A stretch of 44,773 nucleotides of DNA, taken from positions 1 to 44,773 of the IMG/VR virus record IMGVR_UViG_3300042527_000698. One strand, 5' to 3'. This document shows, piece after piece, positions 35,889-36,750 of the stretch. The translations under genes and the position numbers were made by a program. Under the pieces are notes generated by a model. That model was not told the origin of the DNA. It did no database searches and saw only the letters and a list, made by a program, of their open reading frames with translations. Source of the stretch: a virus. Position 1 is the stretch's first letter. Each line of letters starts with the position of its first letter.

Positions 35889-35935
35889 GCGCCGCTATGG
35901 GCCTCTGCGCCCTTCTCGATGGGGAGACCCCATGA
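35885..35935 (+). CDS. 16-residue leader peptide before the methyltransferase
   Basis: MSAAMGLCALLDGETP, starting at the ATGA overlap with the previous gene and ending in an ATGA overlap with the methyltransferase start. The methyltransferase ribosome site (GGGGAG) lies inside it. Such a reading frame would bring ribosomes to the methyltransferase start. It may be only a coupling device rather than a functional peptide. Confidence 0.4.
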   Translation: MSAAMGLCALLDGETP

Positions 35936-36750
35936 CCGGGGCTCTGCGCGTCCTCGACCTGTTTAGCGGGATCGGCGCTTACGCCCTGGGCCTTGAGCGC
36001 GCCGGCATGAGCATCGTTGCTTTCTGCGAGATCGAAGAATACCCCCGCCGCGTGCTGCGGCGCCACTGGCCGGATGTCCCGATTTATGACGACGTGCGCA
36101 CCCTCGACGCTGCCGCTCTTCGGCGAGACGGAGTTACCGCCGATGTCGTCTGCGGAGGCTGGCCTTGCCAAGACCTCAGCCCAGCGGGCACAGGCGCTGG
36201 CCTGGACGGAGCACGCAGCGGACTATGGAGCGAAGTCGCCCGAATACTTGGCGACGTTCGACCCCGATGGGCGGTGCTGGAAAACAGCTCAAACCTGCTT
36301 GGGATTAACGGGGGATCTGACTTTGGCCGCGTTCTCGGGGACTTGGCCGCGCTCGGGTACGATGTCGAATGGCATTGCCTCCCGGCTGCAGCCTTTGACG
36401 CACCCCACATCCGTGATCGCCTCTGGATTGTGGCGCGCCGGGGAAGAACTGCTGCCGACGCTGACGAAAACGGACGGTATGGGCGGCCCAGGGCGGTCGG
36501 CCAAACGCAAGGGCGGCGACAATCTGCGCACGGCGGTCCTGCTCCCCACCCTTACGGCCACGCGGCGTTCGGGGCTGCAATCGCACGGCGAGAACGCCAT
36601 ACTTGGGAGCCTGAACCCGACGTGGTGCGAGTGGTACATGGGGCTCCCAATCGGGTGGAGCGCATTAGAGCCCTCGGCAACCTCAACCCCCCGATCGTCC
36701 CCGAACTCATCGGCCGCGCGATCCTCGAAGCGGAAGGGCTGACCCCATAA
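35932..36750 (+). CDS. dcm: C5-cytosine DNA methyltransferase
   Basis: 272 residues from ATG at 35932, with GGGGAG five bases upstream. Motif I is LDLFSGIGAYALGL (8-21), motif IV GGWPCQDLS with catalytic Cys79, motif VI VLENSS (115-120), motif VIII HIRDRLWIVA (159-168) and motif X RALGNLNPPIVPELIGRAIL at the end. The target-recognition region between VIII and X is short and Arg/Gly/Ala-rich. It transfers a methyl group to cytosine C5, probably to protect phage DNA. No restriction partner is present. Most of the gene is also open in the +1 frame (see the next entry). Confidence 0.9.
   Translation: MTGALRVLDLFSGIGAYALGLERAGMSIVAFCEIEEYPRRVLRRHWPDVPIYDDVRTLDAAALRRDGVTADVVCGGWPCQDLSPAGTGAGLDGARSGLWSEVARILGDVRPRWAVLENSSNLLGINGGSDFGRVLGDLAALGYDVEWHCLPAAAFDAPHIRDRLWIVARRGRTAADADENGRYGRPRAVGQTQGRRQSAHGGPAPHPYGHAAFGAAIARRERHTWEPEPDVVRVVHGAPNRVERIRALGNLNPPIVPELIGRAILEAEGLTP
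36143..36742 (+). CDS. overprinted +1-frame protein inside the methyltransferase gene
   Basis: 199 residues if read from ATG at 36143, which has a CGGAG nine bases upstream; the frame is open from at least 36017. The sequence has AGLAKTSAQ, RCWKTAQTCL, FSGTWPRSGTMSNGIASRL, IASGLW, LLPTLT and LNPTWCEWYMGLPIGWSAL. I recall these motifs from stand-alone phage proteins encoded near Dcm genes. Each motif is the +1 reading of a methyltransferase motif: AKTSA over PCQDLS, WKTAQ over LENSS, TWPRSGTM over LGDLAALGYD, and NPTWCEWYMG over PDVVRVVHG. It may be a genuine second product; expression is unproven. Confidence 0.5.
   Translation: MSSAEAGLAKTSAQRAQALAWTEHAADYGAKSPEYLATFDPDGRCWKTAQTCLGLTGDLTLAAFSGTWPRSGTMSNGIASRLQPLTHPTSVIASGLWRAGEELLPTLTKTDGMGGPGRSAKRKGGDNLRTAVLLPTLTATRRSGLQSHGENAILGSLNPTWCEWYMGLPIGWSALEPSATSTPRSSPNSSAARSSKRKG

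Follow-up and report, generated by a model that had tools for sequence, protein, structure and literature searches.

The window, by which we mean the whole 44,773-base stretch of DNA analysed, is an IMG/VR virus record with phage tail, terminase, primase and helicase genes. On the strand shown, it contains a gene for the large chain, alpha, of a C5-cytosine DNA methyltransferase. The gene begins with an ATG at 35932, ends with a stop codon at 36748–36750, and specifies 272 aa (Table 1). Alpha matches PHROG 363 (E = 1e-71) and, over residues 6–173, positions 2–165 of the 324 positions of PF00145 (E = 5e-38)—the first half only. Motifs I, IV, VI and VIII are all present in this chain (DLFSGIGA, PCQDLS, LENS as a variant of ENV, and HIRDR), and so is motif X, with its GN, in the sequence ALGNLNPP at 36670. 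The linker between motif VIII and motif X is 78 aa long and poorly conserved. The original prediction took this frame for a complete methyltransferase. It is not; motif IX is absent from the frame, and the match to the PF00145 profile ends after motif VIII, at 165/324.

The same DNA is also open in the +1 frame, from 36011 to 36742, which confirms an earlier claim that this frame stays open for over 700 bases. Its protein matches PHROG 1008 (E = 9.6e-20) and no Pfam or NCBIfam model. At 36017, first proposed as its start, the frame merely has its first TTG; the conserved start, MSSAE, is the ATG at 36143, and the protein that would begin there we call beta. The form MSSxx, ahead of AKTS or ARTS, recurs at the beta start of related loci (L008, L107, L108, L112, L113, L115, L119, L138 and L140). 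In another clade the start reads MSWLFSQAL, with M1, S2, W3 and L4 each conserved in >90%. In the Acinetobacter/Pseudomonas group, the ATG of beta sits 4 nt inside the start of alpha (ATGAATGAG), and it is kept even where the alpha-start codon is GTG, TTG, TTA or CTA. Shine-Dalgarno sequences are not enriched ahead of beta starts: 3 of 26 relatives have the core, versus 5.4 expected by shuffling.

The peptide stretches TWPRSGTM and LNPTWCEWYMGLP lie within beta. Five motifs of the +1 frame had been predicted to fall on named parts of the methyltransferase, and at all five places the overlay is exact. Just ahead of motif X, beta NPTWCEWYMGLPIGWSA overlies alpha EPDVVRVVHGAPNRVER at 36613.

Table 1. 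Features of the overlapping methyltransferase genes (window coordinates)
Feature	Position	Strand	Basis or remark
Alpha, C5-cytosine DNA methyltransferase large chain	35932..36750	+	motifs I–VIII and X, no in-frame IX
Alpha motif I (DLFSGIGA)	35956..35979	+	upstream of overlap
Beta frame (+1), stop to stop, 243 codons	36011..36742	+	open frame; PHROG 1008 match
GGAG, candidate ribosome binding site, 9 nt before ATG 36143	36130..36133	+	sequence, weak
Beta, likeliest translated form, 199 aa + stop, starts MSSAEAGLAKTSA	36143..36742	+	conserved ATG
Alpha motif IV PCQDLS / beta LAKTSA	36163..36180	+	sequence
Alpha motif VI position, LENS in place of ENV / beta WKTA	36277..36288	+	sequence
Alpha GDLAALGY / beta GTWPRSGT	36337..36360	+	sequence
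Alpha motif VIII HIRDRLWIVA / beta TSVIASGLWR	36406..36435	+	sequence
Beta motif IX-like segment LNPTWCEWYMGLPIGWSAL	36611..36667	+	profile alignment; low fourfold divergence of alpha
Alpha motif X (ALGNLNPP)	36670..36693	+	sequence

Selection on both reading frames

Long open frames can arise as by-products of GC-rich codons and a conserved methyltransferase, or persist as relics, and the window taken alone leaves some room for this. When synonymous methyltransferase codons are shuffled within each gene, such that the protein and its codon usage are kept, 9% of the window's shuffles leave the +1 frame open, and the score of the shuffles averages 37 bits. The window's own +1 score is 101 bits, however, versus at most 67 bits in 200 shuffles (z 6.9), with a scoring profile built from another group only (L018–L097), the window excluded. 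The 54 related loci together contain no +1 stop, versus 273 predicted by synonymous shuffling, a count that is partly biased, since the matched stretch had been delimited inside a single open frame. The +1 profile score and the binned test described below are free of this open-frame bias, and for every one of the 53 scorable loci the score is higher than in any of 200 shuffles. Shuffling is a conservative test, because the codons it reuses have already been shaped by the second frame.

In the binned test, loci were picked by their methyltransferase and not by their +1 frame, and the +2 frame served as control. Between codons 91 and 240 there is one stop in the +1 frame versus 112 expected, and the +2 counts are near expectation; over codons 211–240, which hold the C-terminal motif of the +1 protein, alpha fourfold divergence is 0.147, versus 0.61–0.70. 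Among relatives with 85–99% alpha identity, divergence at codon positions 1, 2 and 3 of alpha is 0.022, 0.009 and 0.222 before the overlap and 0.121, 0.057 and 0.116 inside it, and divergence at fourfold sites falls from 0.264 to 0.104. Synonymous sites of the methyltransferase are ∼2.5–4 fold less divergent in the overlap. The +1 frame is still open at GC contents of 0.33–0.45 (L003, L012 and L128). Restriction-type methyltransferases have no such frame: in 78 of them from bacterial genomes, used as a negative control, 1765 +1 stops were observed versus 1711 expected, and in four from plasmids the +1 stops are as numerous as expected.

By these recoding and codon-position tests, with the restriction-type enzymes as control, we reject a by-product frame at the level of the family, and for the window, too, we regard a by-product or relic as exceedingly improbable. 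What the +1 frame holds is a genuine overlapping gene, and selection acts on both frames at the protein level. Since both readings are selected, both proteins are probably made. The original prediction, that a second protein family is overprinted on the methyltransferase and that both readings coexist, is in this respect real. It survived the test proposed along with it, which concerned free variation at synonymous sites and +1 stops in relatives (0 seen, 273 expected).

Motif IX and the identity of beta

Positions 206–225 of the beta profile align with the in-frame motif IX of 83 of the 159 one-chain phage methyltransferases, LNPxWVEWLMGFPxGWTDL in beta pairing with RLTPxECERLQGFPDxYT in these enzymes. 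Single E-values for this alignment are weak (best 0.0016), and the argument is one of consistency of position. In the window, it is the C-terminus of beta, LNPTWCEWYMGLPIGW, that aligns with this motif. The +1 frame carries motif IX in 151 loci, and the main frame does so in five; no locus has it in both frames. A one-chain relative of 455 aa, L165, matches PHROG 363 and PHROG 1008 in a single frame, the latter over residues 225–451 (E = 5e-56). On the long profile PHROG 116, alpha lies at 207–401, and two betas (L098 and L101) lie within 424–494. Mycobacterium phage Catdawg and Arthrobacter phage ArV1 divide the enzyme differently again: alpha stops after motif VIII, and an overlapping, out-of-frame beta has both IX and X. 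From the motif alignment, the frame counts, the fused L165 and the split Catdawg and ArV1 enzymes, we conclude that the +1 protein is, by sequence comparison, the C-terminal, small-domain side of a C5-methyltransferase. The beta profile has no match among PDB sequences, and AlphaFold2 models of beta alone, made with 111 and 73 homologues, are of low confidence (pLDDT 60 and 51).

Nested genes among phage methyltransferases

With the window's +1 protein as the query, tblastn finds 15 phage records, and with that of Acinetobacter phage ABMM1, 116; a scan of viral contigs finds at least 600 stretches that encode the protein. All 94 loci examined have an open methyltransferase frame at −1 to the +1 protein; the offset is constant, and GC contents range from 0.33 to 0.66. 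Of the actinophage-type loci, 79 of 80 contain the methyltransferase, and the remaining one is cut by the end of its contig. When the 80 loci found with the beta of ArV1 are sorted by the whereabouts of IX and X, 44 have them in the alpha frame, together with a nested +1 N-part; 31 have them on an overlapping +1 beta; four are irregular, and one is cut. Free-standing copies of the +1 family were sought among the +1-selected loci (the 94 and the 80 of actinophage type), and none was found. MM1 ORF14, Jacopo gp57, Catdawg gp5 and ArV1 67b, copies annotated as ‘separate’, turn out to be this same gene, nested or overlapping. The nested beta gene is therefore widespread in phages, and mostly unannotated; in Paenibacillus phage Jacopo and Streptococcus phage MM1, both frames are annotated.

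The ‘stand-alone family’ represented by PHROG 1008 is, as these comparisons indicate, the nested beta gene itself. Its supposed origin by frame-shifted copying of Dcm is unsupported, given that 94/94 and 79/80 loci contain the methyltransferase. The proposed link between two protein groups was right, but the groups are not unrelated, for beta carries the enzyme's own motif IX, as the precedent of M.EcoHK31I would have it.

Several of the loci have peculiarities of their own. In Rhodococcus phage ReT1v-2 (L011, 1335–2534), annotators called the +1 frame a hypothetical protein; of the 400-codon methyltransferase frame, which has motifs IX and X, only a short stump is annotated. In Escherichia phage ESSI2_ev129 (L105, 550–2408), a divergent alpha, with FGEQ for ENV, contains a nested +1 beta, directly 3′ of a gene for an adenine-type methyltransferase; querying E. 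coli genomes with the ESSI2 copy yielded two partial matches only. In Mycobacterium phage Llama (L106, 1354–2269), the methyltransferase and the +1 reading both switch frame near 1880, which is what a single indel would produce, and the two-piece annotation is common to several records of the group. Two AT-rich loci (L169, 1414–2360 and L170, 1435–2381) have motifs I and IX on one frame, and IV–VIII and X on the other. In a 645-aa methyltransferase (L176, 235–2169), GGFPC is followed by a large insert with HNC at its end, which looks by eye like a motif IV intein. L043 and L136 change frame locally near their 3′ ends, perhaps through sequencing errors or mutations, and these two loci were left out as functional evidence.

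A second nested +1 family, PHROG 16143, occurs in one-chain phage enzymes whose motifs IX and X are both in frame. Loci of this type include L181 (1270–1752), L180 (1285–1779) and the dmt gene of phage P1 (L182, 1531–2019), and further L178, L179, L183, L184 and L185–L343. Their +1 proteins share the motif YFLSxKACxGILRRAEKRGK. In the streptococcal/lactococcal type, there are three +1 stops versus 407 expected over codons 61–180, and in the Vibrio/P1 type, none versus 191 over codons 121–240; fourfold divergence in these two types is as low as 0.12, versus about 0.69. In P1 dmt, the +1 frame is open for 163 codons, and 0.65% of shuffles are open. The PHROG 16143-type product has no motif IX. 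It holds the segment LSDILExxVxeKYFLSxKAxxxxLRRAEKR, instead, which aligns, at one place in the profile, with the in-frame segment that follows motif VIII in many restriction-type methyltransferases (LGDILEKNVDEKYTISDKLYEGHLRRK); the best E-value is 0.00024. It thus looks like the start of a target-recognition domain, a piece of the small domain furnished in trans.

In L446 and other loci of the actinophage type, codons 181–240 of alpha show very low divergence at positions 2 and 3 (0.13, fourfold 0.08). Codon position 1 is spared, and the stretch adjoins the site at which LLPTP repeats switch frame. It could mark a programmed event or the conserved end of a +1 protein.

Nested +1 genes may be general in tailed-phage C5-methyltransferases, with the small domain split and moved repeatedly between frames, and most of the enzymes made of two chains, one of them so far unrecognised; we put this forward tentatively, as somewhat more doubtful than likely. 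If true, it would cover the seemingly complete enzymes of P1 (dmt) and of streptococcal, lactococcal and Vibrio phages, too.

A probable two-chain enzyme and its known counterparts

The window's C5-cytosine methyltransferase is quite likely an enzyme of two polypeptides, of the M.EcoHK31I kind, whose beta gene is nested inside the gene for alpha. Alpha would supply the catalytic domain (motifs I–VIII) and motif X, and beta, parts of the small domain, including the motif IX that is missing from the frame of alpha. The two chains would be translated from one stretch of DNA and then assemble into a single active enzyme, which would methylate the phage DNA—presumably against host restriction, because no restriction gene was identified adjoining the locus. 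We infer that beta is made as a protein, associates with alpha and is required for activity, and that target recognition may reside wholly or partly on beta.

Alternatively, beta might be a genuine protein with a separate role—a regulator or inhibitor of the methyltransferase, or an anti-restriction factor—and its likeness to motif IX might reflect no more than common descent. What keeps this idea alive is that one-chain methyltransferases with their own IX and X retain a constrained +1 gene, so that the +1 family must do more than provide motif IX. The actinophage type is a further example of such enzymes, with no +1 stops, versus 32 expected, over codons 121–210. In the class to which the window belongs, however, motif IX sits on beta and not in the alpha frame, the split and fused relatives show beta to be the C-terminal half of the enzyme, and even the second +1 class bears a canonical methyltransferase segment, DILExxVxxKYxLS. 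We consider a separate job for beta unlikely. Motif IX and its neighbourhood switch frame between relatives, and actinophage types are very conserved at the frame switch (codons 211–240, fourfold 0.08), as might be seen if a programmed +1 ribosomal frameshift joined motifs I–VIII of alpha to motif IX of beta in a single protein. But a single shift would call for neither the overlap of the frames, which extends through all of motifs IV to IX, nor the constraint on beta, which sets in at IV; to reach motif X, in the alpha frame, a second shift would be required, and the beta starts are conserved (MSSAE, and MSWLFSQAL in the other clade). Such a frameshift strikes us as very improbable. The actinophage ShiLan has an out-of-frame protein within its phage methylase gene (PMC11855218), and a mobile homing endonuclease gene might by analogy be lodged here. 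Beta, however, spans the catalytic core and is not an insertion, it is present in nearly all relatives, and it has no HNH or other nuclease match in Pfam or NCBIfam, on which ground we rejected a homing endonuclease identity for it; of all the explanations weighed here, this one has the faintest chance.

That two chains jointly form the enzyme, the reading we prefer, would have practical consequences. Annotation often gives a phage methyltransferase a single gene; here the choice made by the gene caller conceals a second chain, and at times it conceals the catalytic chain instead. A single annotated chain, if expressed, would be expected to be inactive, and surveys of the specificities of orphan methyltransferases from phages and prophages may overlook active enzymes. 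These loci also offer a large natural data set on long overlap between genes of the same strand; the overlap is kept at GC contents from 0.33 to 0.70, and conserved enzyme motifs have changed frame within it.

M.EcoHK31I and M.EaeI are two-polypeptide YGGCCR methyltransferases. According to Lee, Kam and Shaw (1995), the small gene of M.EcoHK31I is said to be nested in the large one, in a different frame, and both proteins are reportedly needed. The M.EcoHK31I system has a known restriction gene, in contrast to the window's locus, at which none was identified. In M.EcoHK31I, motifs I–VIII and X are on the large chain, and motif IX is on the small chain (PMC3404938). The partition in the window is the same, the likeness being one of described motif partition. 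The target-recognition domain of M.EcoHK31I is predicted to be on the large chain (PMC3404938), whereas the alpha of the window has only the 78-aa linker between VIII and X. In M.AquI, another split C5-methyltransferase, alpha has I–VIII, and beta has IX and X (PMC3404938). The window differs in that its motif X is on alpha, but Catdawg and ArV1 fit the AquI partition, with genes that partly overlap. The out-of-frame protein of ShiLan is an HNH endonuclease (PMC11855218), a homing insertion with an HNH domain and no part of the enzyme, whereas beta is without HNH and covers the core motifs. PHROG 1008, ‘DNA methyltransferase’, is matched by the window's +1 protein and by all other class members tested; its record gives no sign that the members nest in, or overlap, a methyltransferase gene. 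In the open-access literature searched, we found no description of nested methyltransferase subunits in phages. The locus appears, then, to belong to a known kind, the two-chain C5-methyltransferases of EcoHK31I type. Three things go beyond the open literature that we found: how widespread the family is, that motif IX and pieces of the start of the target-recognition domain have changed frame, and that one-chain enzymes, too, contain a nested gene.
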